Source of the DNA: Lunularia cruciata
Taxonomy: Eukaryota; Streptophyta; Marchantiopsida; Lunulariales; Lunulariaceae
Reading direction: 5' to 3'
DNA length: 64,000 nt
Assembly (NCBI GenBank): GCA_948567375.1
Contig: OX419756.1
Span: 28,968,333-29,032,332, forward strand
Of the stretch, positions 3,001-63,631 are shown in pieces. Position numbers and translations under genes: made by a program. Each line of letters opens with the position of its first letter. Positions within the stretch are counted from its first letter, which is position 1. The notes under the pieces were generated by a model, which saw only the letters and a list, made by a program, of their open reading frames with translations, was not told where the DNA came from and searched no databases.

Positions 3001-5899
3001 GACTACTTAGGGCATAAAGTAAGTGCGGAGGGTACCCAAGTGCTAATAGATCAAATAAAGGTCATTCAAAAATAGAGTGCTCCAAAAGATTATACTCAAT
3101 CCAAGAGTTTCTTGGGATTGATAGAGTTTTATCATCGATTTGTCAAGGACTTCTCCAAAATTGTACAACCTCTAACAACAATATTGGGCAAGGGGAAGAG
3201 GTGGATATAGGGAACCATACAAGACTTGGCCTTTCAAGAGTTAAAAAATGCATTACTACATGCACCAATCTTGAAATGGTATGACCCAAAACGTCCAAGC
3301 AAGATAGCTACAAACGCATTAGGGGTTACAATAGGAGCAATCCTACAACATGAATGGCAGGATGGATTTCACCCAATTGCATATTTCTCTTCAATTGCTA
3401 TCAGAAAAATGCAACTATCATACCACCAAATGAGAAGAGCTGGCCACTGTCCTTGCAACCAAGCATTGGAAGCACTATTTGGGTGAGAAGGCATTTATGG
3501 TAGAGACAAACCACAAACCTCTAGTCTACCTCAAGACACAAAAGGATCTTTCTTGTTGATAGATTTGGTGGGCAAAATGGAGACAACAATTTAGCATGAC
3601 AATCAGATATATGGAAGGCAAGAAGCAACTTGCAGATGCATTCACTCAAATCCCAATGGCAAAAAACTTGGTGATAGAATTCAAAATGAACCTTGAATTT
3701 TGGCCCAAGATTCTTGCTGCTACAAAAACTGATCCACAGATTGTAGGTGCTCAATCATCCAAAGGCATCACTAGCACCCAACAACTCACGTTTTGTGATG
3801 GTAGGTTGTGGATCCCTAATGATACGGATCTAAGAACCACTACCCTGTCAAAATCTCATGATTTTGCCATTGTAGGTCACATTGGAATGGACAAGACCTT
3901 AGATGCAATTAAATGCCATTACTATTGGCCCAAGATGAGCAATGATGTGATGGAATATGTTTGGAGCTGCTTACTTTGTCAACAAAATAAGACTTCTAAT
4001 CAACCTTCTACAAGACTCCTCCAACCTCTCCCCACTCCTACACAATGTTGGGAATAGGTAAGCATGGATTTGGTTCTTTAATTTCCCAAGACCACCTTTG
4101 AGATTGATTCCATTGTAGTCTTTGTCGACCAATTTAGGAAATTGATCACATGTATGTACTACCACCAAGGATGTGACTTCTTTGCAACTAGCTCAATTGT
4201 ACTAAGATGCAATCTTTTCCATCATGGCTTGTCGTGAGTGCTGATCATAGATAGAGGCACTCAATTCACTAGTTTTTTTTGGAGAACACTCTTTGGGTTC
4301 TTCAAAACCAAATTTGCTCCATCCACAACTTACCATCCACAGACCAATGGACAAATAGAGAGGCAAATCACACTATTGAGGACATGCTTCAGAGCTTTAC
4401 TTGGATGAGCAAGAAAGTTGGGACATGTTACTACCATAGGTGGAATTTGAGTACAACATTTCAATGAATGCCTCCATACAAGTCAAATTTTTCTTCCTCA
4501 CGTATGGAGAGCATCCTTTCACAACTGGAAGCTTGATGAAGTCCGTTTGATGGCTACCAAGGTAGATGATGTCAACACTTTTGTTTCTAAAATCCAATAA
4601 GGGGTGGAGCACAAGATACAGATTGCCCAAAATTGGTAAAAGTAGTATGCAAATGCACACAGCCAACACATGGAGTTCAATGTGGGAAATCAAGTTTGGT
4701 TTTCAACCACCAGCCTCAAGTTAGTTGGTCCTCATAAGCTTTGACCTTGTTTTATTAGACCTTTCTCCATCCTTCATCGCATTGGAGCCATGGCCTATCA
4801 CCTTGAGCTACTGCCACATATGAAATCCACTCAATGTTTCATGTTTTCTTATTATGCAAATATGCTCCTCAACCATCCCACTTCTCTTCCATCCAAGAAA
4901 GTTGACCTTGTCCAACCTTGGTTGATGACACATAGGAGTATGAAGTCGAATGCATTCTCCAAAAGTGCATCTCGGGTACTCACCATCCACATGTGGAATA
5001 CCTAGTACATTGAAAAGGGTGTCCCTTGTATGAGGCAACATGGGAGCCAGTAGCCAACTTGACCCACACACCAATGTTAGTGAAATCTTTTGAGCAATAA
5101 CTTTGCAACAAGGACGTTGTGTCTTAAAAGGAGGGAGGTTTGCAATACCAATAGCTGGATAGATGATCTAGATATGAAATTTGATTTAGTAACATTTTGA
5201 AGGATGTTATACATGATGGACTAAGTAGATAAGCTAGAGGTATCACCAAAAGATTACTTCTACAAATAGGCCAAAAACCAAAACATGCTTGGAAACTTTA
5301 GAATCAATAAGTAGACATATGATCTAGAGGTGAAACTTGAGGTGGTAACATCTAGAAGGATGTTACACATGATAGAGAATGTAGATCAGATAGAGGTATC
5401 ACCAAAAGAGCACTTCTACTAATAGGGCAAAAGCCAAAATAGGCTTAAACTTGAGGCAATTTTGGAGGCCTAAACGGATGGATTAGGCCTCAAAAATGTG
5501 TAGATTCCCCCCTCTCCCAATGAAGAAGAGGCTAGTTTTTGCTCCCCCCTGGTTTCTCTTGATGAGAGATTTCCAATGGTATCTCTCCCACATGATTCTA
5601 AGATTCTTACAAGAAGATTCCTTAAAATATTTCCTCCGGTCAAAGCCTATTTGACCAACTAGATGGGACCAAGACCAACATGTCACCCATCCAAGCAAGT
5701 AATCTAAAGGTGGAGCTTGCTAATAGGTCACCTATCCATGTACCTAATCCTCTGGTGGAGCTTCCTTGGAGGAGATCCTCCCTGGCTATATAATAAAGAG
5801 AAGGTGCTCCTTTGGGGCATCGGAGGATTGAGGGTGAAATTTTTGTTTCCTCTCTTGTATCTCTCTTGAAGAGTTCTTTTGTCCTTGGAGTATTATACA
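1..5899 (+). mobile_element. Ty3/gypsy chromovirus, copy A (5' LTR lies outside the window)
   Basis: Old LTR retrotransposon in the order gag, protease, RT, RNase H, integrase, chromodomain, 3' LTR. The window opens inside the primer-binding site: the first bases match those following the methionine-tRNA-type site of copy B at about 15027. Gag covers roughly 600-1600. A protease-like block (VLIDPRAIENFLS) lies near 1838-1885. RT runs about 2280-3190 ([17 protein letters not shown] near 2548), RNase H about 3220-3640 and integrase about 3850-4800. At about 4940-5060 a chromodomain-like block ending in EATWEP follows integrase, which marks a chromovirus. A purine tract (about 5128-5139) sits just before the 3' LTR. 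The copy is clearly broken, with well over ten interruptions, and is old. Confidence 0.9.
5141..5899 (+). repeat. 3' LTR of chromovirus copy A
   Basis: The LTR begins TGCAATACC and ends in a GTATTA..ACA block, matching the TGTAATAC...GTATTACA ends of its relatives at 14423-15025, 54819-55590 and 62713-63626. A TATA element (TATATAATAAAG, from 5787) and the downstream GGTGCTCCTTTGGGGCAT block are kept in all four LTRs and are the likely promoter and start region. The first 300 bp contain the same roughly 150-bp segment twice (about 5145-5280 and 5305-5430). The solo LTR at 54819-55590 shares this doubling, but the LTR at 14423-15025 does not, which defines a long LTR subfamily. Confidence 0.9.
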
Positions 5900-6169
5900 T
5901 CACTACATCATACATCATTGTCAACAACATACACTATTGAAGCACAACTCACACATTAGTCATACATGAACTCTAGCAGTTAGGTCCATCTAACTTAGAT
6001 AGCCATCTACTCCAAGTATATGGTATACCCTATGGTGGGCAAAGATCAAGAAGCCGGGTGATATTGAGCCCCATTGTTGGTTACTTTTCTACAATCTATA
6101 CCATATAAAGGATGAACTAGCTATAGGTCAAGTACATCTAGGATATAACCACTGTCCTTGAGGAATAAC
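5900..6169. other. Spacer between copy A and recognisable part of copy C
   Basis: No coding similarity is visible. It may hold the decayed 3' non-coding end or LTR of the minus-strand element C, but I found no match to the C 5' region at 13.9-14.4 kb, so the 3' end of C is undefined. Confidence 0.4.
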
Positions 6170-8960
6170 CATGAGGGGAGGAGTCAAACATGTCACATTC
6201 TATCCTCTTGAACAACTATTACACATTAACATAGTAGCAACTCCACCAAAAGAGCTGCATAACATAGAACGCAAGCCTACACATACAAGTGCCAAGCTTG
6301 GATCCATAGTACCATCAATGTTTGGGAGATGGCATGCTCAAATGCCATTGGCATTACTTTCCAAAAGATCTTTGCCCATTGAGAACATGCACTCATCCAT
6401 ACGTCTGGATCATCCAAGTCCAAAACTATTGGAGCATTTTGACAAATGGTTGTAGGTAAATCTAGATCTCTTCCAAAGAGTAGAAAGAAAGGAGAGAAGG
6501 ATGCTAAGGAAGCTTGCTGGCTAAACCAATAGCCACTGGCCAACCAAGGTAATTGGAGATCCCAATCTCCTCAATGGCCTCTCTACAAACTATACTTATG
6601 AAATCCACTCTCTTTGCTAAGCCATTTGAACCACTCTCTTTCTTAAGCCATTTGAACCACTCTCTTTGCTAAATCATTTGCCTTAGAGTGATATCAAGAA
6701 ATAGTATGATGATCAATTAGATCCTTCTCACACAAGACCTGAAACTCTCCCAAGAACTTTGTACATTGATCAGTCAAAACCTTAGCTTGTGCACCAAAAT
6801 GACTAAAAACTCAATCCAAGAATGAGTAAGCCATCCCTTCATTGGACTTATCAAGAAGTGCAACCAACTCAATCCACTTGGAGAAGTGTTCTACCATAAC
6901 CAAAACATACTGATGATATCTCATAATCAATGATAAAGGTCCAACAAACTCCAAACTCTAAGGTAATTAGTGTAATTTTGGTGTAGGAGCACTAAATAAT
7001 GCTCTAACTTGGTCACAAACCACACATCTAGTAACAAACTACTATACATTGGTATGCATACCATGCCACAAATAATGACTTTGGAGTAAGCTATATGTAT
7101 GCTTTACTCCAAAATGTCCTAGCTCTTCATGAGCATGACAAACCAACTATGGTCTCTAGGATGGAAGTGGTACTACTTGTACTCTACCATCTTCCCATAC
7201 ACAAAGAAGGTGTCTACCCACCAACTTAAACTACTTGGCTTGCTGAAGAACATGATGTCTCTCCTTAGCACCAATTGTATCACCAATTCTGTCATCCACA
7301 ACACTAGTGCAAAGATAATCCATCACCAAGACATTATCATGAATGTCTTGTTGAATTATACCAATATTTCCACTTTTGGATCTATGACCTCAATAATTCC
7401 ACCGGTATGTGCTAAGAGAAATACCACCAAAGCCTTAGAGAATATAAATAAGAAGGTAGATGCATGCCAACTTGGCACCATCTCCTCATTTGTCTCACTA
7501 TGCCAATGTGCCCTGGTCTAACTTGTTGGTTGAGATATGGGTTTCTACTCAACCTATCTACATCATAGTTCACCACTCTAGGTATGTAAATAACCATGAA
7601 ATCATACTCTTGTAAAATTAGAGCCCATTGTGTAAGCTTCCCAAAAAGCTTGTCAGACTCCATCAACCACTTCAATGGTTGATGATCAATGATGAGAATG
7701 AAGGAGTTATAGGGTATCAAATAGGTAACATTGAATATGTGTTATTGCCCATAATGCTACCAAGCACTCTCCCTCATATGAATATACTTCACATCTACTA
7801 AATTGTTAGAGCAACTAGCATAGGACACCACAAACTCCTTCTCCTCATCATCATGTTGGGTGAGCACTACTCCAAGCCCCAACATGCTCCAATCAATGTG
7901 AACTTGGAATGGTTGTCCTTTGATCAGTCTCTCAAGAATGGGGGTAGATATCAACCTCTCCTTGAGCTTTATAAAAGAAAAACTCTCTCTTGCTCATCTC
8001 TCCAACACACTCTTGTGTGAGCTTGTCCAACTTTGTGAGGGCCTTGACCTTGGTAATGGCACTAAATCCTCTAACATAGCGGCAATAGAAGTTTACCAAC
8101 CTAAGGAATGCTCGCACTCTACTCACATCCGTAGTCCAAGGATACATGCAATAGCCACCACCTTGGTATGTTGAACACCAAGTCCTCTAGGGTAAATAGT
8201 GTGACCCAAATACTCAACGTGCTCATGGAAGAATCTACACTTTCCAAGATGTAATTTGAGTCCATGAGATCTCAATCTCTCAAACACCTCCAAAAAATGC
8301 CTCTTATGTTCTTCCTAATAATGCTATAGACCAAAATGTCATCAATATAGCATTGAATAAAATCCAATCCTGCTAGGATCTTATCCATGACCCTCTAGAA
8401 CTCAACAAAAGCATTCTTTAACCCAAATAGTAAGAACCTCCATTGATATAATACATCCTTACCGTGAGGATCAATAGCCAAAAATCCTATCTTGGACTTA
8501 TCTTCCTCCTTGATTGGCAAATAATGATATCTTGCTCAAAGATCCAAAGTATTGAATACCTTTGCATGACCAATTGCATCACAGATCTCCTCAAGTGTAG
8601 CCATGGCATACCAATCAGCCGTAGTTTATCAATCAATTGGACAATAATCTCCACACATCTGCCTATCTATGCATATCCTTCTTGGCTTGCATCACTATAG
8701 CTAAAGCATGCTTTCCATGTGAAATCTCCACCAAACCTGCCTCAAAATGGTTTTTATTGTGGCTTTGAATCAATACTTTCTCCATGTCACTAGATTCATA
8801 AGGATGTCAAAAAATTGGTGTATTGCTAATAAGCTCAATGTGAATACTAGGTCCTTTTAGAGCACCCAAATACTTCATACTAAAGGCAAAAAAATTTGTG
8901 TAGCTCCTAAAGAACCTCCAAACTCTCTATCTTTCCTCTCTTGTAAGCTTGGGTCCAAGA
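6170..8960 (-). pseudogene. RT, RNase H and integrase region of element C
   Basis: Fossil pol 3' half. RT motifs lie between about 8960 and 8000, with a YIDDILVYS core near 8330-8352. RNase H carries LGVVLTQHDDEEKEFVVSYA (near 7900) and DHQPLKWLM (near 7690). The integrase has a zinc-binding segment near 7160-6980, a core (GPLSLIMRYHQYVLVMVEHF, near 6930) and a C-terminal part with FLLFGRDLDLPT (near 6480) and DLDDPDVWM (near 6410). Multiple interruptions; no longer a gene. Confidence 0.85.
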
Positions 8961-9339
8961 TCTTTCTCCCAAGTACCCTTTGTAACTGATGTAGGAGTGG
9001 AAGAAATATTGACTGGCTACTATGTTAGGCACTTAGTATTAGTAATTTCATGCTTCCAACCACTAGAGTAACCAAACTTAGTATGGAAACTCCCTCTGAT
9101 TTACCTACAAGCTCCATACGTCCTCTAGCTGCATCTCATGCAGGTCAAGGGTGTGATCCAAGTAGACCATGCTCACTTGGATAGATTCTAAGCAGACCAT
9201 TCTCACTAGTAGCCATTGGCTATGTCCCAAGAAAACCTTGCCTACTTGGTCCATCGCTCCTAACATGTGCTTGAATCATCTGGATAGGCATAAAGCTCAC
9301 AAGTGTTCAAGTTGTGATGCCTATCAAGCGTATCCTAAT

Positions 9340-10301
9340 CTGCCAAGCCAAGGTTTACAATCCAGTCAAACAATTTAGGTCCATAGCTTGACCTAACATA
9401 TGACACTTGGATGCCTTTGACATTGTTGGAACAATGGTGATAGTGGTTTGAAAACCCATTTCTTGCTCCCTCTCATCAACATTGGGCTTCACTAACTATT
9501 ATAACTATGAGTCTCAAACAAGTCCATGTCCCCTCTCTCAAAAAGCATGAGAGCTTGGAGAAACTCATAAGTGTGGGTAAAGCAGATTTGGCCTATCCAA
9601 CAAGATTCACCATTTCCATAGGTGACCTATCAGCCACTACCACCATTTGAGACTAGCGCCCAACATTTAAAATATCACCAACAATGAGGTGATTTAGTCC
9701 CTAAATCCCATCATAGGCACATTGTAGAACCTCTTTGGGTAAGAGGTCTGTCCACCAAAGATTAAGATGATGAGCCTGTGATCCCACTCTAGCTGCAACC
9801 AACAATATGGTAGTTCTCATCCAAGAATGGACTTGATGGGTACTTGCCACCACTTGGGTGCAAGAATCACCAATCAAAAGGACTTTCTCCAAAATGTAGG
9901 TTGTAGAAATAGACCAATGAACCTAAAGATGTTTTAGTATATGTTTTAGTATATGTTTTAGTATCTCCCAAACACACCACAATGGGGTCCTAGAGACCCT
10001 AACCTCAGCTTGCCCGTGTATGTCCTTGATATGGCCATCCAAAAATCACCAAATGAATGAGACCATGTCTCTCCAAATCCTACGTCCCCAACAAGGAAAT
10101 GTCTACAAGTTGGGTCTTTTGGTAACTCCTAATTGTTGACATTAGCAATAACTCAAGATACCAATGGGCCAAGTGTGCCACATAATGTAACAAGAGTTGC
10201 CTAGTAGTCTCATCTCTCCCTACATACAAGTACTTTTGTACTTGCATATTTGCATGTAATACAATAGCTAGTCTAGTGCTAATCCTACCAAACAACTCCA
10301 A
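9340..10301 (-). pseudogene. Captured cytosine-5 DNA methyltransferase domain inside element C
   Basis: About 320 codons between protease and RT read as a C5 DNA methyltransferase (DNMT/Dcm superfamily), which moves a methyl group from SAM to cytosine C5. Visible in order: motif I for SAM binding (LELFGRISTR, 10301-10272), then YLYVGRDET in the motif II position; a motif IV block GWP-Q-GHTRAS near 10030-9995; a motif VI-like LEKVLLIGDS (ENV position) near 9890; a motif VIII-like ARVGSQAHHLNLWWTDL near 9800-9750; and C-terminal DEREQEMGF (about 9478-9452) followed by LGQAMDLN (about 9400-9376). Copy D keeps the N-terminal half, including the catalytic GWPCQ. Relatives of this arrangement are known from retrotransposons of some algae and protists. 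The copy is a fossil with many interruptions; function is inferred from the family. Confidence 0.8.
9930..9970. repeat. Short tandem repeat inside element C
   Basis: Three to four copies of TTTAGTATATG in a row, a local expansion within the methyltransferase region between the motif IV and motif VI blocks. Confidence 0.85.
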
Positions 10302-10959
10302 TGGGTATACACCCTCTATTGGATATTGCCCAGCAATAAGTATGTGGTATCCAAAGGTAACATTGAGAAAGACTCCAAAGGCTCATCCTCACATAGGTCT
10401 CCTAGTGGTACAAAGGCTCCACAACAAGCCTATTATACCAATTGATTTGCATGCTACTACAATGCCTCTCAGAACTCCACAATGGAACATCCAAGGTGGA
10501 TCCTACTCGGACTCCAAATCCAAGTGATCTCCTCTAGTACTAGATTATCCTCTACATGGGCATTTCTCTCCAATAAGTGACCAGGCCAAAGTAACAAAAC
10601 CATTGAAAGTTGAAACTAATGGCCATGGTCCATGACTGTAGTGAGCCAAGACTACCACTACTAAAGCATATTGTTAAATGACACACCCATCCTCACCTAA
10701 CTACCAACTTGGTCTATAGAAGGTTGTCTCTTCCAAGTAGTCAATACCCATGGGATATAATACTACTCCACCAACTAGCACATCATATGACTCAACTACT
10801 GTTGCAATAGCTTGAGCTCTCACCATAGAGTTGTAAATCTAATGACCAGGCTGAATCTATATAATGAGCTCTCCACATGTGATGTACAATGTAGAACCAT
10901 CCCCCAGAGATATATAGATCTAAAATGGACACCTCTCCACATTGGTCTTCCATAGCTCC

Positions 10960-11010
10960 ATATTGACAACTACAACCTTCCCTAACATAAAGGGTTGCAC
11001 ACTAGAGTCT
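10960..11010 (-). other. Retroviral-type aspartic protease block of element C
   Basis: Minus-strand reading gives RVLLDSSVQPFMLGK, which resembles the LLDSGAQPVMLGK active-site region of Ty3/gypsy proteases. It sits between gag and the methyltransferase block. Fossil. Confidence 0.6.
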
Positions 11011-11879
11011 AATAAGACCCTCTATGGTATATAGACCTACCCTAAAGGGCCCAACAAAAAAAATCCGTCTCTCATTATCCAATAGGACAACTCAAATTGT
11101 GAACCGCACTTGCTCAACGGTAGTCTAGTTGGTAACTCCTCCAATCTAGTTGTTGTTGCTTGATATAAACCATTGGTTGGTGAGCGGATCACATGCTCCT
11201 CAACCAAGTCAGCTCCACTATCAACCACCTCTGCTCTAGAAGTAGGACCACATCATCCCTACTCTCACAAAGTGTGGCAGCCAAATAGAACACTAGAGTT
11301 AGGTCAACTTCAAATGTAAACATATCATTGGTTGAGAATAAAGGGAAGTGCATAATCAACTAAGCCATCCCCAACATCAAGCTAGACTCAATTGGTGTAG
11401 TAGCAAGTAGTTGACTAGTAGGTAGTTTATCATGCACCCCATCACCACCTAACACACCTACACTAGGACATCTAGGAGCTATGGATGTCATTTGTAGTGC
11501 CTCAAAGAGTGTAAATGATTAGAGGAGACTAGGGAAGATTCTTCTCTTTGTGGGTCCAAATCCACTAATGTTCCTCTAGGCTCTAGAGTATGCACTACAC
11601 TCCTAGTTACTGCAATAGATGCATCTACTTGTGTTGCTTCACACATGAAGTGCAAGATGTCTCTATCACTAGCATAAGAGGTGTAAACCTCAACACCAAA
11701 ATTTGATCTCCTCTAAGTTATGGCCATGTTGGCCAATCTTTGCTCCAACTACTCAATCCAAGTAGCCATGGTTGTATCAAAAGTAAAAGTAGGTACTACA
11801 CTCCTACCAAGTGTGGATCTTCTACCACCACCTCACCCTCCATGACTTGGATCTCCTCTACCACCTACTATAGTAGCCC

Positions 11880-13080
11880 TACCACTCCATAATTTTGAGT
11901 GGAGGTCAAAGCATAAGTCACTAGTATGACCAAATCTTTGGCAATGGTCACACTATCTCTATGATGGTTGTGATGCACCATAGGTATCATGTCCATTGCC
12001 TTGAGTGCACTCTCTCTTGTGGTGAGGTCCATCACAAGTCCAACAAGCAACACCACCACTCATTGGCTACTATTGACCTAAAAATGAAGATAAGGGTCTA
12101 GCTATAGTAGGCCTTCTACTCACTCCATAGGATAAAGGTTGTCCACTCTATCCTTGAAAACTAACATGGTGTGGTACACTCTACTACACTCTAGAAGAAG
12201 TAACAATCATGGATGAGGTCTCCCTACCAAATCCAAATGTCACTCTCTGAGCTCAATGTGTTCAGCCAAACTAAGGACCATTGCTAAAGTATATGAAGTA
12301 GCCTTTAACAATGTAGTATCACGTACTCTGTATTGCAACTCCCTATCCAAAATTCTTTACCAAAACAAGACTATTTGGGCTTCAATAACTCAATCCTTGA
12401 GTGAAACTAATCAATCATCTCATGCAAGTGTATGCCTCTTGTTGGCCGTCTTCAACCTTCCATTTGAATTCTTACAAGCTCTTCAACTTGTCAATCCGCA
12501 CTCCCTAGTCATTTTGACTCAAGCTTTGGAAGAACTCCACCATGGGATTAAACCTGGTACTATACCACCTCTTGTAGTGGTACCTCTACTTGTAGTAGCA
12601 CCATTTCCAACTAGTGCACCTCCACTAGATCCACCAATGCTACCCCTAGAAATCAAGCCTAAAGTGATGGAGATGTAGTTTGGAGACCAATATTATCTCT
12701 ATAGCTCAATCTCCTCCAAGTGAGCTCTCTTGAATTCATGATAGTCATCCATTGGTGGACCCTCCAAGTTCTAAAACAACCCCTTCCATACAATGAAAGG
12801 TGTGATCAAAGTCAGGTTCCGCATCTATTGTAGATCACACCAACTATCAAACTCTTGGATGAAGTCATCCAACTCAATAGTACTCACTAAACTAGAGTAG
12901 CATTTAGGGCCCTTGGATGCCCCATGGATCTCATCTATATCCCACAACAATTATGCGGACACACCAAGTGCACTCTCAACTAAATCAATCCATGTATCAA
13001 ACTACAACTCAGAGTCCATCTCCTCTCTCATTGGGATATGAGATATAAGTTTTATACTAAGTGCCACTCCGTGTAAACCC
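11880..13080 (-). pseudogene. gag of element C with two zinc knuckles
   Basis: The zinc-knuckle pair is the clearest part: CWTCDGPHHKREC followed about 30 codons later by CDHCQRFGHTSDLC, a perfect CX2CX4HX4C, at about 12050-11905. Upstream codons to about 13080 match the equivalent stretch of copy D at about 20880-21900 but show no recognisable capsid motif by eye. Fossil, several interruptions. Confidence 0.75.
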
Positions 13081-14417
13081 ATTATGTATTATCATGATAT
13101 CTCCTTAAGAATCCTCAAAGAACTTTGTTGTGATAAAGTAACTCAAATTGTAACCATAACCACCGCAAGTACCCTACCAAGAATCACTACCAAGTGCTAC
13201 CACCAATTGAACACCACCCACTAATGTAATTGTGACTACAACAACTACACTAAGGGAAAGTGCAACCTGTAACTTGCCATCACAACATGCACTCTTACGG
13301 TCTACATGTCATCACTTCTTGCTTCACTAGAGAGAAACACAAGTAGTTTGACTAGTCATCACTCCAACCTCATTACCAAGAGAACACTAGACACCATCAC
13401 TCTAAAGTCAAGGCACCTCACACAACATGGTGCATAAACAAAAACTAAAGAATGGAAGAGATCCAATCCCAAGAAGTCTAAACACAACTCTCTATTTCAT
13501 AAATCAATACCAAACTAACTCTGTCACCATTTGGCATTTTACATGGTAGGAGTGTCTATCAACTTCTTAAGCTACCAAAGGTCACCAAGAATGGGATCAA
13601 ACTACCTCTAGCCAAAATTTGACATAAATCTTCCACAAAATCTGACATAAAATTTGACATAAATTTGAATTGACTCCTCTATAGTTGGCTAACTACCAAA
13701 TCCTTTGCTAAATCTCCACTTGAGTCAAATCTCTAACTTGAGGAGATGGGTTCTCAAATCCAACTTCAATTTTGCATTTTGAGTTCAACTCACACCAAAT
13801 CGGCCTTGATTTCACCTCTTAGGCTCAAATTGAACACTATTGTCTAAAATTGACACTATTCTCATCAAAATTTGGCCATCACTTTTGCACCCAATATCAT
13901 TGAAATCTGAACCATGATCAAGGTACCAACAATCAACCAGGCTTGGAGATACCACCAACCTCTTCAGTTCTTGCACCCGATTTCTCCTTGACTCTCACTT
14001 CTCCAATGTTAAAAATTCTTCATCAACTCAAATCACACGCAAATAGATTAAGACTTGATCATTCACTCAATCACTTTGCCAACAATCATGCATTGATTAC
14101 AATCAAGCAACTTCTACTCTAGCTAAGAGACTCTAGGTGATGCTTGCCGGCCTCTGTCCACCATAGCCAAAAAATCAAAGGCTCAACATCAAAGAAGTGA
14201 ATTTTTTAGAGTTACACTATGACAGTATACCTTTGATTTTGGCCTAGGTCTCCAGCCCTAACGGTCTTGCTGATGGTACACTTGATGTCACAAATAGTGC
14301 AAGTGACAATGGGTCTCACCTTGTGATCAATACCTCAAACATGAAATCAAACCACCATGCATGAGTCTATGAGTAACTACCAAATACCTTTGACTACCAA
14401 CACTACTACTCTAGTGT

Positions 14418-18000: not shown

Positions 18001-18654
18001 GTATGTCTTACCACCAAGGATGTGATTGCCCCACAACTAGCTCAATTTTACTTAAATGTAGTCTTTTCCCATCATGGCTTGTCTCGAGTGCTCATCATAG
18101 ATAGAGGTACTCAATTCACTAGTTTTTTTTGGAGAACACTCTTTGGATTCTTCAAAACCAAATTGGCTATGTCCACATCTTACCATCCTCAAACTTATAG
18201 AAAAATAGAGGGAAAATCACACTATTGAGAATATGCTTTAGAGCTTTACTTTGGATGAGAAAGAGAGTTGGAACACCTTACTCCCATTGGTAGAATTTGC
18301 TTATAACAATTCAATGAATGCCTCCATACAAGTCACACCGTTCTTCCTCATGTATAGAGAGCATCTTTCACACCTTCAAGCTTGATGAAGGTTTGTCCAG
18401 TGGCTACCAAGGTGAATGTTGTCAACACTTTTGTTTCTTGAATCCAGCAGAGGGTGGAGCATGCCAAGCACAAGTTGCAGATTGTCCAAAATTGACGGAA
18501 GCAATATGTAGATGCACATTGCCAACACATGGAGTTCAATGTGGGAGATCAATTCTTGTTGTCAACGACTTACCTCAAGTTGGTCCTCATAAGCTTAGAC
18601 CTTGTTTTATTGGACCTTTCTCTTGGAGAGTTCTCTTGTCCTTGGAGTATTACA
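14423..18654 (+). mobile_element. Chromovirus copy B inserted in element C
   Basis: Same family as copy A. It starts with an LTR (14423-15025), followed by a methionine-tRNA-type primer site at about 15027 (TGGTTTTAGAGTGGGTG). Then come gag N-terminal sequence (about 15670), RT (about 16130-17040; [19 protein letters not shown] near 16400), RNase H (about 17090-17480) and integrase (about 17590-18560). The right end finishes with LTR-terminal sequence GAGTATTACA. Both flanks carry the 5-bp target duplication CCAAG (14418-14422 and 18655-18659), so this is one insertion event into C. It is shorter than A and broken in many places. Confidence 0.92.
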
Positions 18655-18659
18655 CCAAG
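18655..18659. repeat. Target-site duplication of copy B, right
   Basis: CCAAG immediately after the terminal GTATTACA of copy B. The sequence after it to about 18690 resumes element C. Confidence 0.9.
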
Positions 18660-18689
18660 CAATCTTGCTTCAATAACACAAATGTCATG

Positions 18690-18815
18690 ACAATGAAAGT
18701 ACTCTTTTTTGACACCTCTATTTAATCTATTTAGGCCATCATATATAACATCTATCAAAATATTACCCAAGCTAATTTCCACCTCTAAATAGTATATCTA
18801 GCTAATGGTATTATA
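18690..18815 (-). repeat. Chromovirus LTR fragment at the junction of elements C and D
   Basis: Its reverse complement matches the first 125 bp or so of the chromovirus LTR (TATAATACCATTAGCTAG, then AGAGGTGTCA). Its outer edge at 18815 abuts element D exactly after the Gln codon of the GWPCQ motif. No target duplication could be recognised, so it may be a recombination scar. Confidence 0.85.
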
Positions 18816-19110
18816 TTGACATGGCCATCCAAAAATCACCAAATGAATGGGACCATGTCTCTTCAAATTCTATGCTCCCAATAAGGAAATATCTATTTTA
18901 GTAGTTAAGGGTTCTACTAACCCCTAACTAATGATATTGGTAATAACTCAAGATACCAATAGTCCAAGTGTATCACATGATATAGAGAGACTTGCTTTGT
19001 AGTCTCATTTCTTTCCACATACAAATACCTTTGTACTTGTATACTTACTTGTAGTATCATAACTAGTCTAGTGCTAATCCTACCAAAAAACTCCAATAGC
19101 CATACTCTCT
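18816..19110 (-). pseudogene. N-terminal part of methyltransferase domain in element D
   Basis: Motif I (EFFGRISTR) lies at about 19098-19070, followed by YLYVERNET. The motif IV core GWPCQ is at 18830-18816 and ends exactly at the LTR fragment. The Pro-Cys pair is the catalytic motif of C5 methyltransferases. This independent copy supports the domain call made for element C. Confidence 0.75.
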
Positions 19111-22100
19111 TTATTGAATACCTCCAAGCAGTGAATGTGTTATCCAAAGGGGACAAGGCAATAGACTCTAGAGGCTCATCCTCACACTGGTTGCCTAGTG
19201 GTACAAATATTCCACTCCAAGCCTATTGCACCAATTGATTTGCATATTGATGCAATGCTCCCTTGGAACTCCACAATAGAACATCCAAGGTGAATGGAAT
19301 GATCCCACTCATCCTCTATATTTAAGTGATCTCCTTTGGTATTGGGTATCCTTTGCATGGGCATTCCCTTCCAATAAGTCACTAGGCCAAGTAATGGAAT
19401 TGGTGAAAGCTGAAACAAATACCATGGTCATTTACTATAGTGAGCCTATACTACCATTACTAAGTGCACAAGTAGGCAACATACTAGTTCCTCACTTGAC
19501 TTCCAACCTAGCAAATAGGAAATTATCTCTTCATAATAGTCAATATTGAATTTATATGCATGTGGAGTAGAACACAACTCCACCAATTAGCATATCATAT
19601 GACTCTACTATTGTCGCAATGGCTTGAGCTCTCACCATAGAGCTATCCAATTGGGCTGAATCTAGACAATAAACTCACCACATGTGATATACTATGTAGA
19701 ACCACTTCCTAGAGATGTTTGGATCTAAAATGGACACCTCTCCACATTGGTCTTTTGTAGCTCAAGATCAATTATTGTAGCCTTCCCCAACATAAGGGGC
19801 TAATAAGATCATTTGTGGTCCATATATCTTCCTTAAAGGTCCCAAAAACAAAAATCCCACTCTATTTGTCCAATAGGACAATTCTAGGTGTGAACCAAGC
19901 TCACTCAAAGGTTAGTCTAGTAGATAACTCCTCCAACCTAAATGTCACTAAGTGAATCCCATGCTCTTCAATCAAGTCAACTCCACTATCAACCATTTCT
20001 ACTCTAGAAGGAGGAACTAAATCATTCTTACTCTTTCAAAGTGTAGCAACCAACTAGACACTAGAATTGGGTCAACTCCCAATATAAACATGTCATTAAA
20101 TGAGAAAAAAGATAAGCATATAATCAATTGAGCAGCCCCCAATATCATGCAAGATTCAATCTATGTACTTGTAAGTGGTTGACTAGCATCTAGTCCATCA
20201 TGCACTCCATCACCACCTACCACATTGCTTTAGGATGACTAAGAGCCATATATGTCATTTGTAGTGCCTTAGAGAGTGTGAAAGACTAGGGAAGTCTAAC
20301 TATCTACCAACCTCTCCTCTCTATAGGTCCAACTCCATTAGTGCTCTTCTAGGCTCTAGAGCACATATTGCGCTCCTAGTCACTATGGTAGATGCATCTA
20401 CCTATGTTGCTCTACACATAAAGTCTAAGGTACCTCTATCACCAACATAAGAAGTGCAAGCCTTAGCACCCAAATTTGACCTCCTTTAAGCTATGGCTAT
20501 GCTAGCCAATCTCAGCTCCAATTGTTCAATCTAAGTAGCTATGGTTGTACTAGAAGCAAGGGCAAGTATTGCATCCCTACCAGATGTGGGTCCTCTACCA
20601 GTTTGTCTTCCATGACCTAGAGCTCCTCTATCACTTGCCATAGCAGCCATACCACTCCATAACTCCGGGTGAAGATCAAAGCATTGGTCATTTGTGTGAC
20701 CAAATCTATGGCAATGGTCACATTATCTTTGGGTTGGTTTTGATGCACTAGAGTTATCATGTCCATTACTTTGAGTGCACTCTCTCTTGTAATGAGGTCC
20801 AACAAGCAAAACCACCACTCATTGGCTCTTATTGACCAAAAAATGAAGGTAAGGGTCCAATTGCAGTAGCCCTCCACTCACTCCATAAGATTTGGGTTGT
20901 CCACTTTGCCCTTTGAAACCAACATGATGTGATGCACTCTGTTGCACTTTAGAAAAGGTCATAATTGTGGATGAAGTCTCCCCACCAAATCCAAATGCCA
21001 CTACCTCTTCCTCCACCATGTTGAGCTCAAAACGCTCAGCTAAACTAAAGACCACTACCAAAGGAGGTGAGGTAACCTATAAGAATGTAGCATCACGGTC
21101 TCTACATTACAACTCCTTATCCAAGATCCCATGCCAAAATTGGATTACTTGGACTTTAGTAACTACTTGAGTGAAAATTAGCCGTCTCATGCTAGTGTAT
21201 GCTTTGCATAGGCTCTCTAGTCTTTTGCTAGAACTCTTGCAAGCTCCTTAGCTTGTCAATCCACACTCCCTAGTAATTCTTCCTCACACACTAGAAGAAC
21301 TCTACTATGGGTTAAAACCCCAATATCGCACCATCTCCTATAGTGATACCCCCACTTGTAATAGCACCATCTCCAACTAGTGCACCTCCACTTGATACAC
21401 CAATACTACAAGAGTTATAACTTGTAGGTACGGCTAATCTACCCCTAGAAGTTGAACCTAAAGTGATAAAAATGTAGTTCAAAGACCTATTTTGTCTCTA
21501 TAATTTAATCTCCTCTAAGTAAGCTCTCTTGAACTCATGATAGTCATCCATTGGCAAACCAACTCTCCAAGTGCTACAACAACTCTTTCCATGCCATGAA
21601 AAGTGTGAACAAGGTCAGGTTTTTTTATCTACTATAGATTACACCAACTATCAAACTCTTGGATGAAGTTATCAAACTCTTGGATGAAGTCATCCAACTC
21701 AATGGTACCTAATGTACCAAAATAACACTTGTAGCCTTTGGAGGCTCCATAAGTCTCATCCATATTTGACAACAATAGTGCGGACATCCCAAGTCCACTC
21801 TCAACTAAATTAGCTTCTATATCAAACTCTAAATCATAGCCAATCTCTTCCTCATTGGGACCTGAAATACAGGTTGATATTGATCACCATTCCATATAAA
21901 CCCACTATATATTGTAGAAATATCTACTCTAGAATTCCCAAAGAACTCTATTGTGACTCAAACCGTAACTCAAACCATAATGTGACTCAAACCGTAACCA
22001 TAACCACCACAAGTACTCCACCAAGTACCAAGACCACTCACTAATATGGCTCTAACAATGGCAATTGCACTAGAGGAAAGAGTGACCTATAACTTTCCAT

Positions 22101-22732: not shown

Positions 22733-23418
22733 TCTAACACCAACCATTTTTACATCTATGTATTATTGTGATATTTAGTTTGGTATTATAAATATTTGTG
22801 AGATATTATTTATATAGAGACACAAGATAATTTTATACTAGTCATGATTAGCTAAAGTTAGTCAAATTTAAGATGAAGGAGATCTTACTTTAGAGAAAGT
22901 GAAGAAGATGAGCACCACTTATTTTGGATTCTAGTATGTTGACTTGGTATTATTCCTAGGTGTTTGGCTTTGAGGAAAGAGTTGAGAACTCTTGGACCCA
23001 CAAGTCTTTTTGTTTTGGATTCTTCTATAGTCCAAGGATAGCCTATGTGAAGGAATCCTTGACTTAGTGGTTGGGTCAAGATAAGACCACATGCTTAGGA
23101 GAATATTCATATGAGCATAGAAATTCCTTTAGACTTTTTGACTTTATTTGACTTTTACTTGAGTAACTTGAGTTACTCCAATAATTTTTAAATTTGGTAT
23201 GTAATTATTTCACAAGTATATAAACTAGGAATGAGGAAGTATTCATCATCCTTTCATTTGCAACTATCTCTTTCTCATTGAGTTCTCTAGTGAGCAATGG
23301 TTTGAGTGTTAGCCTTGGAGTAGTATGAAGGAGTTGGGGTTCTTCATATTCTTAGTCCATGGTGTACTACAATATTAGCCATCAAAGGTTCATCTTGAGT
23401 AAAAGATAGGCAAGCTCA
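22733..23418 (+). repeat. 5' LTR of element E
   Basis: Begins TCTAACACC and ends AGCTCA; matches 29804-30472 over its whole length. It has a TATATAAA element at about 23217 in the same context as the right LTR (about 30282). Confidence 0.9.
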
Positions 23419-29803: not shown

Positions 29804-30472
29804 TGTAACACCCATTTGTGTATGGATGTGTTATTTTGATATTTATTTTGGTATTATAAGTACTTGAGAGATATTATTTATATAGAGACAAAGGATAGTT
29901 TTACATTAGTCATGATTAGCTAAATTTAGTCATAGTTAAGATGAAGTGTACCTTACTTTAGAGGAAGTGGAAAAGATGAGCATCACTATTTTGGATTCTA
30001 ACATGTTGACTTGGTATTATTCCTAGGTGTTTGGCTTTGAGGAAACAGTTAAAACCTCTTGGACACACAAGCCTTTTGTTTCAAATTCTTCTATAGTCCA
30101 AGGATACCCCATGTAGAGCAATCCTTAACTTAGTGGTTTGGTCAAGATAAGACCGCATGCTTAGGAGAATATTCTCATGAGTATGGATATTCTTTTAGAC
30201 TTTTTGACTTTATTTAATTTTATCCTAATGACTTGAGTTACTCCGGTAATTAGTAACTTTGGTGCGTAATTATTTCACAAGTATATAAACTAGGAGTGAG
30301 GAGGTACTCATCATCCTTTCATTTGTAACTATCTCTCTCATTGAATTCTCTAGTGAGTAATGGTTTGAGTGTTAGCCTTGGAGGAGTATGATGGTGTTGG
30401 GGTTCTCTGTCTTCTTCGTCCATGGTGTGCTACCATCAAAATTTCATCTTGAATGAGAGATAGGACGGCTCA
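29804..30472 (+). repeat. 3' LTR of element E
   Basis: Begins TGTAACACCC directly after a purine-rich stretch (CAGTGGGTAAA) and ends GGCTCA. The sequence after it returns to the leader of element D. Confidence 0.9.
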
Positions 30473-31350
30473 TTGGACAACCTCCACCAACTTGACTTGC
30501 AAATTTAAACAACCTCTTCCAATTTAATGCACCTTCTTTACAATTGGCTGACCGCTAAATGCTCCACTTACTATCAACTTGAGCCAAATTGAAAGGATGG
30601 AGATCTCCAAATCTCTAATCAGAGGAAATGGGTTTAGAAATCCACCTCTAATTGTGCACCTTGATTTCATCTCCTTGTACTCAAATTGAACGCACATTGT
30701 CTCAAATTGATTCAATTCTCAAAAATTTAGCTAGTGCTTCTGCACATTTTTTGCCTCATTGCCAAATCTACATCAATTTGGATAGAACTTTCACATGCGA
30801 TCACTCTCAAGGAAATCTAAGACCACAATCAAATGTATCAATAATCAACTAGGTTTAGAGATGCCACCAACGCCTCAATTTTTGCACTAGATTCCTTGTG
30901 ACTCTCATTTCTTTAATGTAATTAATTCATTCTTCCACTCTAATCACACTTAAATCATATTTGTATTTGATATTTCACTCAAAAATCTATCAACAATTGG
31001 ACACTAATTATAATCAATTAACACTCATTCTAGCTAAAAGACCCCAAGTAACGCTCATTGGCTCTATCCACCATAGCTAGGAACTCAAAAATTCTACATG
31101 AGAGAAATGTGCTCTAGAGTTACACTTTAAAAAAATATACCTTTTTGCTCGACCTAGATCTCCTACCCTATCGACGCCACTAATAACATATTTGACAATA
31201 TGAACCGTGTAAGTGACGGTGTATCTCACCGTTTGATTAGTAGCTTAACATGAAATTCAATCATACACAAATAATTTGTGAACTATTACCAAAATAACTA
31301 TAATTATTAACATTAACATTCACAATAACGACCTAACAAACTAGTTTTGG
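30473..31350 (-). mobile_element. Element D, right part (5' leader or LTR region)
   Basis: Long similarity to element C at about 13640-14420: both have a TAGCTAGAG..-type block, AGAGTTACAC and the segment TGTAAGTGACGGTGTATCTCACC (C version near 14300). It is therefore the continuation of D beyond element E. The outer edge near 31350 is uncertain, and no clear LTR end was found. Confidence 0.8.
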
Positions 31351-39881: not shown

Positions 39882-40925
39882 CTATGACCACCATTCATTT
39901 ATTATGTCCCTGTTCTCCTCCTCTCCCTCTGAAGGACATGAGATTCTCACCGATGCTGATTCACTATAATGACCACTCTCTTTGGAGTAAGACATATAGG
40001 GTACAAAATAGCTGGGGCAGACCGGCGAAGTACCTGCCTGCCCAGATGGAGAAACAGACGTAAACTGCGCACTGCTGGTTGTTGATGGGAGAGAAATTGT
40101 TGGCAGCGCGTTCACTCCCGAAGCCGGCCAGGGACCCCAGTTTGACTGATTGGTATATCCCATCATGTCGTTGAGGCCACTATCCTCACTGGTGCCGAAG
40201 TTCAGACATGCAAGGAAGCTGAACGACTGGTCTTGGTCTTGAGCAAGTACGGAGGCGTCGATCACCGGGTCAGTGGGTGCCTTCACTTCTGCATTGCCCA
40301 TCTCCGGGGGGTTGCCATTAGCATTTGGTCGTGAAGGCTGTGGCCGGACAAGATCGGCGCACGGAAGCTGCGCTGCCTCCATCTTCGTTGCAGCCGCGGA
40401 AGACACACTGGGAGAAGTGTCTGAATTTTGGGAACAAAAGGTCCCGCCTGTGAGTTTCTGCACTGTGGCCAGAAATTCTTCAGGTGTTATGTCCATAGTC
40501 CTTGTTGGCGGCTTCTTCGACGCGCGCGATTTGCGTTTAGTTTTTGGCTTTCCGCCTCCGCCTACCCGACCACCGTTCTTCGCAGACCTTGAACCGGTTG
40601 TTCCGGGTGAACCTTGAGTTCTCGATCGAGAAGCCTGAAGCTCCTCTCCTGGCCCCTTGCCAGTCTCTGTGATTGAAAATGTTGAAGGTGCTTCCTTCAC
40701 AGATCCGACACAGGACTTGCTCTCACTGCTATGTGATGGAGAGCCAATTTTCTGACTCAAAGACCCAGAGCCCGTTGGTTTTTGGACCCGAGACCTGCGA
40801 GCCTGCCATGCGTCATGTAGCTTGTGCAGCAACAGGGTAGAACTTGGCACACCACCCCCGGGCTTGAAACTCTCTTCTCGGGCAATTTGCCTATTGTCCT
40901 TAAGCATTTCTCGGCTAGGTGCCAT
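39882..40925 (-). CDS. VQ-motif-containing protein
   Basis: Single uninterrupted 347-codon frame, the only intact host-type gene in the window. The VQ motif FxxxVQxLTG reads FLATVQKLTG at residues 151-160 (40475-40446), preceded by MDITPEE. A basic stretch at 126-138 (KPKTKRKSRASKK) is a likely nuclear localisation signal. The rest is Ser/Gly/Pro-rich and probably disordered, with an acidic C-terminus ending NEWWS. VQ proteins are plant nuclear cofactors that bind WRKY transcription factors and MAP kinase cascades through this motif, acting in defence and growth; the partner here is unknown. Several VQ genes are intronless, in agreement with this one. The start has a purine at -3 and G at +4 (GGAATGG). 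Codon use is GC-richer than the surrounding repeats. Which VQ subgroup it belongs to is not resolved. Confidence 0.9.
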   Translation of the reverse strand: MAPSREMLKDNRQIAREESFKPGGGVPSSTLLLHKLHDAWQARRSRVQKPTGSGSLSQKIGSPSHSSESKSCVGSVKEAPSTFSITETGKGPGEELQASRSRTQGSPGTTGSRSAKNGGRVGGGGKPKTKRKSRASKKPPTRTMDITPEEFLATVQKLTGGTFCSQNSDTSPSVSSAAATKMEAAQLPCADLVRPQPSRPNANGNPPEMGNAEVKAPTDPVIDASVLAQDQDQSFSFLACLNFGTSEDSGLNDMMGYTNQSNWGPWPASGVNALPTISLPSTTSSAQFTSVSPSGQAGTSPVCPSYFVPYMSYSKESGHYSESASVRISCPSEGEEENRDIINEWWS

Positions 40926-41610
40926 TCCACTTTTCTATTTCTTGAATCCTGGGGGGAGAATCCTTGAGTTCAAACTTGGATGTCCTGTGCTGATTGCCGG
41001 TTTCACCTGTTTCAGAACCGATTGTTCTCGGACTGGATCAAGAAATGGAACACCTCCTTTCTGTTCTTCCCCTCACTTCCTCCCAAGTACTTTCAAAGAA
41101 GAGCTGAATAAAATAGCTGCAAGATTACGATTCTCAATCTTCAGATAGGAAGAACATGAAGGCGTGTACGAGGGACGTGAGAACTTGTAGCATTTGAAGC
41201 TCTCGTCTTTAGCACACAGTAGAAAATTCTGGTACTTGCTCTGTGGCCGTCTTTGATTACACGCTCAGGCGATCTGGGAATCATGTGTAGAAACGCCTCT
41301 TGCGCTTTCTTGCTCTCCCGCTGCAAATTCTCAACTCGCAACCCTCCCTCTTTCTCTCTGGGGCCTCGTTGTAAACTTAACGCTCCTCTCTCTCTCTCTC
41401 GCGGATGGTCGGCTCAGTTCAGTTGCCTCCCGATACAAGGGTGCGAATGCCACAACCCATAACTTTACAGGAAGAGCTTAACGTTCACACCAGTCCCTGT
41501 TCTGGACGTCTTGATCTTCCGACAGAAAGAAATCCTGATAACCCTGAGAGAACACGAGCGCCTTCTGAACCATCTACCGGGAAAATGTTGAGTTTATAGA
41601 ACCCATCTTC
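40926..41610 (-). promoter_or_regulatory. Probable 5' leader and core promoter of the VQ gene
   Basis: Upstream on the minus strand lies a GA/CT microsatellite (41384-41401), a common feature of plant 5' leaders and core promoters. Further up, TCTATAAACTC at about 41588-41600 resembles a TATA box, about 665 bases before the ATG. A 66-codon upstream frame (41341-41141) could be an upstream ORF. Transcription start and leader length are guesses. Confidence 0.35.
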
Positions 41611-43620: not shown

Positions 43621-45660
43621 GGAGTGAATAGAGTTCGGAGACGGTAGAAGAGAGGGAGAGATGTGAGAGGAAAGATATATATTTCTGAGGGCTCTCTAGC
43701 ATATAGCACTTGAATGAATAGTAAATTATGTTCATTTTTCAATTTTGGTTTCAGACTATGGCGAATTGAGTAGATAGGAATGTGTATTTTTAGGTTTTTT
43801 TAAGGGTTTAGAGTGATTATTACACATTGAGAGTCATGGGTAGAGAGTTTTCAATTTTATTCTCTTGGTATTCATTCTACCATTCCATGGGAACTTAGTT
43901 TGAAAATTTTAGAGATTGAAAATTACAGGAGTTTATTTTTTTAGGGTTTGGAGAGATAGTATTTACTCTTGTGAGTTGGGATGTGAAGCATGGTGGTTTT
44001 GCAGGTATGGGAAAAGATGGAGTGGAGCATTGTATGTTATTATCATTATTCTTGTGCTAGACATGCTTACACTTCCCATGTGGGGCCGCCCAGAGTGGCT
44101 CGGGATACACCATGCTTGGTGTCTCATCAACTCTTTACTTCACAAGGGACAAAGACCCATGTGTGAAGGATGCACAAGGACTATGATTGGAGCACTTGGG
44201 ATAACATGTGAGGCAAGTGATCAAATCAACAGTTGTGACACTCGGGATTAAGCATGCTTCCTCCATCCCTTTGTTGACCGTTCCAATGATATCGATTGAG
44301 TCGTGGGAGTAGTTAACTTCTCAAGTGGGTTGCATTTTGGGATTATTTAAGATTAGTTTTCTATGTCCACGTTTATTCCATATGCTACCCTATACACCCC
44401 ATGATGAGGCTAGATAGGCTTTTTGCCTAATACTTGATCGTTTGGCACGTGATCCCTTGGATGAGTTAACATGGTTCCTATTACTCTTACTCTCTTTATG
44501 GTGCTAGAGTGTGACGTGTGGTGCATCAAGAGGTGATTGCTAGATTTTTTCATTCCGAGCGGGGGATTGGACAGCCCTACAAGAGGAGTCTATTAGGGCT
44601 GCACATTTTAGGAGACAATTTTTGTCATAGGATACCATAGAGTCCACTTGATTATGACAATGTAAGACTTTGGGTCATATGGGATAGTTTAGTGGAGCAG
44701 CACAAGCGCTACATCCTTTGTCTATGGCTATACCTACTGATGAGACTATATTTTCTCTACGCTCACTACATCTTATGGCAGGAGAGGAATTACCACTAGA
44801 GGTCTTAGATTATAAGCCTAATCAGCTTTTATGTCTTGATAGGTCACTTTTTGCACAAGCATTGTACATTGCCCCTTACCTTTCCTCATAGGCTTGTCAC
44901 GGATGATATATGAGCATCTTAGAGATTCCTTTCAAGCATATGATCCTTCTGGTGGTTTTACCAAGTTGTTTAGGTGGTTACAATAGTAGCAAGAGGAGAC
45001 ATTCCTATTTCTGTTAGTCAAGTGTTAGGTACTAGTTGACTTCTCATGATGGAGAAGAACACAAGGGGCATTAGACCAATTGCTATTGGAAAAATCTTTT
45101 TGCATTTCATTAGTCGTACCATTATCTTTTAGCATTGTTCTCACATCCAATAGCACCTCAGTCCATATCTATTTGGTGTAGCTACACTTGGAGGATGTGA
45201 GGCTATATCTTTAGGCATTAGAGCTCTCCTAGATATCTATTTGGAGTGCATTGTCCTACAGGTGGATGTTGAAAATGCTTTTAATAGCATCTCACAAACA
45301 TCCATCTTTAGAGAGCTTAGGAAGGCTAGTGGATCCTTGGCAAGTCTTATCCTTTTGTGTGGTTCTTTTATGGCTNNNNNNNNNNNNNNNNNNNNNNNNN
45401 NNNNNNNNNNNNNNNNNNNNNNNNNNNNNNNNNNNNNNNNNNNNNNNNNNNNNNNNNNNNNNNNNNNNNNNNNNNNNNNNNNNNNNNNNNNNNNNNNNNN
45501 NNNNNNNNNNNNNNNNNNNNNNNNNNNNNNNNNNNNNNNNNNNNNNNNNNNNNNNNNNNNNNNNNNNNNNNNNNNCACTTTACCCTATATGTCTTTTTCT
45601 TGTACAGCTTCATGGGTGTTCCCTTCCCTTCTTGTTATCTTACGCGTTCGCCATTCCCTC
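43621..45660 (+). mobile_element. LINE copy 1: N-terminal zinc finger and start of RT; sequence gap; 3' tail T5
   Basis: Non-LTR element parallel to copy 2 at 58280-60000. Homology starts at GGAGTGAATAG (43621). A C2H2-like finger region lies at 44112-44176; one zinc cysteine codon reads Ser and a stop interrupts it. RT begins near 45180 with GVATLGGCEAISLGIRALLD and continues with LQVDVENAFNSIS (from 45256), the RT A-motif region of plant and protist LINEs. The frame 45241-45375 is open up to the gap at 45376. After the gap the family 3' tail (45576-45660) follows directly, so most of the RT and the endonuclease half are missing or hidden in the gap. It is a CpG-poor island between CpG-retaining flanks. 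Confidence 0.75.
45376..45575. other. Assembly gap (exactly 200 N)
   Basis: A run of exactly 200 N suggests a placeholder of arbitrary size. It interrupts LINE copy 1 between RT and tail. Frames that run through it are artefacts. Confidence 0.97.
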
Positions 45661-54818: not shown

Positions 54819-55590
54819 TGTAATGTTCCAAGGATAGTAGAGAGACACAAAAGAGAAAACACAAGTTTCACACTCAAAACTTTGATGCCCCAAAGGAGCA
54901 CCTGCTCTTTATTATATAGCCAAAGAGGATCCACTCCAAGGAAGCTCCACCCTTGGATCAAACACATGGATTGGTGACTTGTCAGCGAGTTCCACCCTTA
55001 CATTACTTGCTTGGATGAGTGACATGTCTGTCCTTGTCCTATTTGGCTTGTCAAATAGGTTTTGACCACAGGGAATCTTCTTATAGGAATCTCATAATCA
55101 CGTGGGTGAGGTACCATTGGAAATCTCTCATTGAGACAAGCTTAGGGGAAGGGAAGACCAACCTTTCTTGAATCTGTTGTGTGGGGGGGGGGGGGGGAGG
55201 GGAAGGAGGGGGGAGGGGGAATCTGCACATTTTTGAGGCCTAACTCATCCATTTAGGCCTCTGAAATTGCTTTTGAAGTTTTCAAGCACATCTAGGTTTC
55301 TGCCCTATTAGTAGAAGTACTCTTTTGTTGATAACTCTATTTGATCTACTTAGTCCACTATGTGTAATATCATTCCTAGATGTTACCAAACCAAATTTCA
55401 AATCTAAATCATATGTCTAGCTATTGGTTCTAAGGTTTTCAAGCATATTTTGGTTTTTACCCTATTAGAAAAAGTAGTCCTTTGGTGATATCTCTATCTA
55501 ATATATTTATTCCATCATATATAACATCCTTCCAGATGTTACTAAACTAAATTTCACCTCTAGATCATATGTCTAGCTATTGGTATTACA
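54819..55590 (-). mobile_element. Solo LTR of the chromovirus family, minus strand
   Basis: The reverse complement starts TGTAATACCAATAGCTAG and ends GGAACATTACA, like the LTRs of copies A and B. The conserved TATA element is at 54907-54919 (minus). It shares the internal doubling of the copy A 3' LTR. No internal region adjoins, and the flanks are CTTAT (54814-54818) and CTTAC (55591-55595), a 4-of-5 target duplication, so it arose by LTR-LTR recombination. A G-rich stretch lies inside at 55183-55220. Confidence 0.92.
55183..55220 (+). repeat. G-rich tract (15 consecutive G plus further G runs)
   Basis: A run of 15 G followed by G4, G6 and G5 runs within the solo LTR. The equivalent place in other LTRs is only mildly C/G-rich. 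It could fold as a G-quadruplex, and it is also a typical place for sequencing error. Confidence 0.9.
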
Positions 55591-55595
55591 CTTAC

Positions 55596-61200: not shown

Positions 61201-61478
61201 CTCATACAAATTTATAAGTCATATTTTCCAAAATATAAAAAAATTTATATGGTTAAAGATATATTTCCATAAATTCACATACTTGGTTATGCTATTCATA
61301 AAATTCTACAAACTTTTTGAAAACTTTTGCAGATTTTTTGTTTCAACTCTAACTATTCCAATAATCATCAAAGGTGGATAACTTTGACCTTTAATCTAAG
61401 AAATGGTGCCTAGCCCTATTTTACCCCCTTGTTTTTTCTTTGTAAGCTTGATGGGATCTTCCCACCCTTCTTTTTACA
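58210..61478 (+). mobile_element. LINE copy 2: zinc finger, RT and post-RT region, tail motif at both ends
   Basis: Longest LINE body. A tail-like motif (T6, 58210-58275) precedes it. Homology to copy 1 starts near 58280. A C2H2 finger reads CTICHQRFSLQG..HKGKMH (58779-58841), like the N-terminal fingers of R2-type elements. RT: the A-motif region VDVENSFYSIS near 59930, GDPLGRPLFAM from about 60124, and an ENDTYIMGSIHQIR block near 60218 in the place of the catalytic ADD. The post-RT part (60540-61000) matches copy 3 closely (PIAFLGS-type, FMVVDRLILETY). From about 61010 to 61400 it carries unrelated sequence, then the 3' tail T7 (61405-61478). No endonuclease half is present. Several stops and frame changes interrupt the coding stretch. 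Confidence 0.75.
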
Positions 61479-62600: not shown

Positions 62601-62712
62601 GAGATATTTAGAAATCATAAGTGCTTGAGTAGATTGTTGCAATAAGTGGCAAAAAAAGAGAGACCATCATGGTAAGGACCTATCCACAAACAAGGGGCCA
62701 GTAGTGCCCATG

Positions 62713-63626: not shown

Positions 63627-63631
63627 CCATG

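Follow-up and report, generated by a model that had tools for sequence, protein, structure and literature searches.

The window, a 64,000-nucleotide stretch of Lunularia cruciata contig OX419756.1, carries on its minus strand two copies of one retroelement family, here called elements C and D. C is a decayed Ty3/gypsy element whose low side adjoins the LTR of another element, A, which ends near 5895. Its reverse transcriptase, RNase H and integrase, as identified with Pfam, stand in the gypsy order and lie 3′ of the remains of a cytosine-5 (C5) methyltransferase. The features of both copies, in window coordinates, are as follows.

5900..13610 (approximate), minus strand: element C, decayed Ty3/gypsy, delimited by pairing with D and by its Pfam domains (reverse transcriptase, RNase H, integrase)
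6573..7200, minus strand: integrase of C (PF17921, 52.9 bits; PF00665, 30.7 bits, under the cut-off of 32.6)
7412..7993, minus strand: RNase H of C (PF17919, 46.7 bits; PF17917, 28.6 and 31.8 bits)
8123..8700, minus strand: reverse transcriptase of C (PF00078, 29.7 and 40.6 bits)
~9350..10340, minus strand: C5 methyltransferase remains of C, from tblastn of relatives, motif places and DNMT3A segments
9358..9495, minus strand: ORF with the motif IX-X block of C (DEREQEMGF, LGQAMDLN), top score among 672 ORFs for the DNMT3A segment
9373-9396, minus strand: LGQAMDLN of C, by motif place
9451-9477, minus strand: DEREQEMGF of C, by motif place
9701..9922, minus strand: ORF with the motif VI-VIII block of C, top score among 672 ORFs for the DNMT3A segment
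9743-9796, minus strand: AARVGSQAHHLNLWWTDL of C, by motif place
9863-9895, minus strand: ILEKVLLIGDS of C, by motif place
10020..10040, minus strand: motif IV of C, GWPYQGH, with the catalytic Cys changed to Tyr
10080..10382, minus strand: ORF with motif I of C, from tblastn of relatives
10275-10301, minus strand: LELFGRIST, motif I of C, by motif place in the three-frame translation
10767..11222, minus strand: protease-like stretch of C, from DSGADL to YDVLVGG, recognised by eye, its YDVLVGG side common to the relative P0005
18816..22430, minus strand: element D, the second family copy, cut off at 18816, from pairing with C
18816..19129, minus strand: methyltransferase remains of D, motif I to motif IV, from tblastn of relatives and motif places
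18816-18830, minus strand: motif IV of D, an intact GWPCQ at which D ends, by motif place
19070-19096, minus strand: motif I of D, LEFFGRIST, by motif place

Pairing between C and D extends over 10026-13609 at about 74%. Both are dead copies, and the join of the methyltransferase to the reverse transcriptase is visible only in the broken C. No LTR pair was found for C or D in the stretches compared, D being truncated and the limits of C approximate. Since Pfam returned no match for the DSGADL-YDVLVGG stretch of C, we infer its protease identity from its resemblance to an aspartic protease. By coordinates, DSGADL, YDVLVGG and motifs I and IV of C share one frame.

The surroundings of the two copies are themselves repeat-rich. 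The LTR of element A holds a 156-base unit in 1.8 repeats (5163-5446). Next to D, the 3′ LTR of element B seems to be mostly deleted (18619-18813): the B internal region (to 18622) is followed by 37 bases matching 5862-5898, where the LTR at 5141-5895 ends, then by another LTR fragment of the same type, and then by D. On the 5′ side, 13726-14405 (beside C) is 65% alike to 30608-31315, and 22741-23418 (beside D) is 85% alike to 29809-30472, so that the sequences 5′ of C and of D each match adjacent parts of one stretch near 30 kb. This stretch may be a third copy of the family, or else a long LTR; tblastn of the relatives found no methyltransferase in it.

The earlier note had read six methyltransferase motifs, in a fixed order, from the minus strand of 9340-10301, and three-frame translation recovers all of them in that order. 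The location given for the domain was also right, its extent being slightly larger than reported, at about 9350-10340, where the upper end is set by tblastn of relatives and the lower end by motif X. The domain is split over three frames with stops between them, one holding motifs I and IV, one VI-VIII and one IX-X. Motifs I, IV, VI, VIII and IX-X are thus present in order, with VI represented only as LEKV and with VI-X lacking a relative's support; motif IV reads PYQ instead of PCQ, so the catalytic cysteine is lost. Motifs I-IV precede VI-X in C, which is the unrearranged order found in DNMT3; in plant DRMs the motifs are rearranged.

To search 5.77 billion proteins, the D ORF was aligned with a single frame of C in which stops were written as X. 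Of 2386 candidates, four had E up to 1 (3.6e-37, 9.0e-34, 4.3e-27 and 5.3e-13). The best match, P0001 (E 3.6e-37), carries the source name ‘site-specific DNA-cytosine methylase’, as does P0003, while P0002 (E 9.0e-34) is an unnamed product of the liverwort Calypogeia fissa, encoded on a 66.6 Mb contig. P0001 scores 25.9 bits against PF00145, above the cut-off of 22; P0003 scores 14.4 bits, under it, and P0002, P0004 and the further relative P0005 have no PF00145 match. Against NCBIfam TIGR00675 (dcm), P0001 reaches E 2.2e-7, but its 30.8 bits fall far under the cut-off of 100.65. Phage C5 methyltransferases resemble the family as well: of 50,697 records, 583 had E up to 10 (best among the matches listed, 7e-6), and all four that were tested against P0001 matched it, with 0/1000 shuffles as good. 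The earlier note had looked to PF00145 for support: none of the window pieces alone matches this family, whereas the close relative P0001 does, and it is because of homology to P0001 that C and D are assigned to it.

In tblastn, P0002 aligns with the unedited sequence of C at 59% along 115 aa (E 5.7e-36), and with D in two parts, one of 88 aa at 51% and one of 29 aa at 66%. When the whole window is searched with the relatives, they align with C and D where the motifs had been reported, the next best hit having E 0.19. PCQ is kept in all three relatives that reach motif IV, and also in D. None of the relatives covers motifs VI-X, and a structure model of P0001 was unusable (pLDDT 34).

A second alignment search, which scored only the 8000 candidates with most words in common, gave one protein with E up to 0.1, the 259-aa P0005. 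This protein joins the YDVLVGG stretch, the protease-like tail, and motif I of the methyltransferase in a single ORF, with a spacing between tail and methyltransferase of 510 nt, compared with 486 nt in C and 503 nt in D. Given this one-ORF join and the similar spacing, the domain belonged to the element family and was no stray insertion.

The methyltransferase homology, its position, its occurrence in both window copies that cover the region (2/2), and a relative with tail and domain in one frame are demonstrated. With them the central proposal of the earlier note, a Ty3/gypsy family encoding a C5 methyltransferase between protease and RT, holds up, and the domain is not confined to one copy. 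Very probably, then, C and D both belong, as dead copies, to a single Ty3/gypsy family whose Pol was ordered protease, C5 methyltransferase (DNMT3 type, unrearranged), RT, RNase H and integrase; this level of confidence concerns the identity of the thing and not its mechanism.

Other explanations of the same remains were weighed against this one. The motifs might have been picked by a motif-seeking reader from chance resemblances in a decayed protease-RT linker, as the spread of the pieces over three frames and their poor showing in isolation would suggest: for pieces of the methyltransferase remains alone, Pfam gave nothing beyond the unrelated DUF5955 (E 0.19) for the VI-VIII piece of C, with which a protein search gave zero candidates, NCBIfam had no match for two window pieces, and PDB gave no match or one unrelated chain at E 0.92. 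Against chance, homologues at E 3.6e-37, one of them a PF00145 protein, align in place to both copies, and the later pieces each rank first when all 672 ORFs in the window with at least 40 aa are compared with DNMT3A segments. The VI-VIII piece scored 39 (next ORF 35, best shuffle 38) and the IX-X piece 45 (next ORF 36), with none of 2000 shuffles as good for either; on repetition the counts were 2/2000 for VI-VIII and 0/2000 for IX-X. The lead of VI-VIII over the next ORF and the shuffles is narrow, and that of IX-X wider. The relatives rule chance out, leaving it a negligible probability. It is also very improbable that a host DNMT3 gene or pseudogene dropped into one element copy without being part of the family. 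True DNMT3 genes are reported from non-flowering plants (PMC6453930), but the domain sits at the same place in D, and the same upstream stretch is joined to it in P0005.

Where the family acquired its methyltransferase is a closer question. The domain could be as described and yet go back to the capture of a C5 methyltransferase of phage-like or bacterial kind instead of a eukaryotic DNMT3, and parts of the relatives and of C lean that way: motif IV of P0001 reaches 86-90 when compared with four phage enzymes and 61 with DNMT3A, for motif I of P0001 and of P0002 the top score is with phage IA-38, and the motif IV piece of C, too, scores highest with phage enzymes, being a good match to only two of the four, with DNMT3A at chance. 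Other remains in the window point the other way: DNMT3A gives the top score for motif I in both copies, for motif IV in D and for motifs VI-X in C. The VI-X pieces of C are at or near chance against full-length phage enzymes (32 to 893 of 1000 shuffles as good) and against phage segments, of which four were compared with VI-VIII and three with IX-X. In PDB, where 41 distinct sequences matched P0001 with E up to 10, DNMT3A came first (0.031), followed by 4onj, which we take to be a plant DRM (0.052), and M.HhaI (0.084); a profile of the relatives and window ORFs retrieved 19 chains, all at E 0.2 or worse, of which 16 were DNMT3A, two DRM-type and one unrelated. Two scans of prokaryote genomes gave 14 and 36 pattern matches and two scans of IMG/VR viral contigs gave 2 and 24, with no relative in either set. 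On these sequence scores, capture of a DNMT3 appears the better guess, though not a settled one, and a phage-like or bacterial source is unlikely.

For the role of the enzyme, the likeliest single proposal, which we put forward tentatively, is self-methylation of new copies. In living copies the methyltransferase would be released by the protease and travel with the reverse transcription complex. There it could act on the new cDNA or insertion, with CpG as the probable target, and the methylated copy would look like, or be treated as, host DNA. Methylation of cDNA was proposed by the authors of PMC5890265, whose text, as available, describes de novo CpG methylation by retrotransposon DNMTs, with a DIRS-type DNMT active and a LINE DNMT that did not methylate DNA in yeast.

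The observed/expected ratios at CpG are 0.10 in both C and D, and those at CHG are 0.26 and 0.18, respectively. An element at 24-29.8 kb, in which tblastn of the relatives found no methyltransferase domain, has a CpG ratio of 0.04 and a CHG ratio of 0.27. The depletion was therefore rejected as a mark left by the methyltransferase of the family, the element without the domain being at least as CpG-depleted, and for the same reason the purpose suggested in the earlier note, managing silencing or marking targets, was not borne out. Differences between C and D number 19, 13 and 22 of 79 by codon position, with no clear third-position excess, a pattern that says little about purifying selection on the domain. 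It is an evenly balanced matter whether the methyltransferase, as described, had some role other than cDNA methylation, for example restraining the element, RNA modification or integration targeting, or was a passenger. The lack of a family-specific CpG footprint favours such a role, and restraint of transposition and RNA methylation are among the options in PMC5890265; evidence against it comes from the same paper, which reports that the Klebsormidium domain is under purifying selection and that a DIRS DNMT methylates CpG.

Across the window, CpG ratios are 0.04-0.19 and CHG ratios 0.18-0.37 in the repeat-rich stretches measured (within 1-29800 and 55000-64000), and 0.69-0.74 and 0.90-0.93, respectively, at 31.3-38 and 42-48 kb; the contents at 48-54 kb lie between the two levels. 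A 350-aa open frame at 39882-40934 on the minus strand, in surroundings with a CpG ratio of 0.69, contains FLATVQKLTG, which fits the plant VQ motif FxxxVQxLTG. This frame had no Pfam match and is perhaps a host gene. A further repeated stretch, 43687-45373 and 58355-60039, is 77% alike between its two copies and has an RT-like frame, seen by eye, at its end; a 200-base run of N at 45376-45575 adjoins it. A comparison with Rfam gave no match.

The kind of element is already known. Compared by description, KnitGypsy-Dnmt3 of Klebsormidium nitens is an LTR gypsy element that, like the family of C and D, has in its Pol a methyltransferase of the Dnmt3 class with unrearranged motifs, and it differs in its charophyte alga host, its conserved key residues, its Ka/Ks below 0.2 and its DIRS-like repeats (PMC5890265, available text). 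The family described here, unlike KnitGypsy-Dnmt3, is known from two decayed copies and a liverwort relative. A methyltransferase within the Pol frame, as in KnitGypsy-Dnmt3, is seen in the P0005 join, and in C the tail and motifs I and IV lie in one frame. The dinoflagellate SymbioDIRS-Dnmt3 and SymbioLINE-Dnmt are also retroelements with a C5 methyltransferase, although of the DIRS and LINE classes and not gypsy, according to the same partial text (PMC5890265). Plant DNMT3 and DRM are likewise de novo C5 methyltransferases, and the motif order here is common to DNMT3; as far as the available text of PMC6453930 goes, they differ in being host genes without retroelement context, with the DRM motifs rearranged. 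TatI and TatII gypsy elements offer a parallel in placement, having an extra enzyme domain between PROT and RT, which is an RNase H and not a methyltransferase (PMC6317226, in part).

Earlier records of retroelements with their own cytosine methyltransferase come from dinoflagellates and a single charophyte alga (PMC5890265). In PMC6338049, a later paper, they are called absent from land plants and an argument is built on that absence; PMC12344493, with reference to the 2018 paper, speaks of DNMT3 in streptophyte and dinoflagellate retroelements. By titles and abstract openings, no report of a land-plant retroelement methyltransferase was found in open-licence PubMed Central. The Calypogeia fissa protein P0002 places the protein family, as distinct from the element itself, in a land plant. 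Because of this protein and the fossils in the window, the premise of absence from land plants appears to need revision. It is possible, at a confidence that stops a little short of even, that a methyltransferase-bearing Ty3/gypsy lineage persisted or spread among land plants, both liverworts and the host of the window, and methylated its cDNA de novo with an enzyme of its own. Such a lineage, if real, contradicts the published view of absence from land plants, and whether elements of this kind shaped plant methylomes would become testable.
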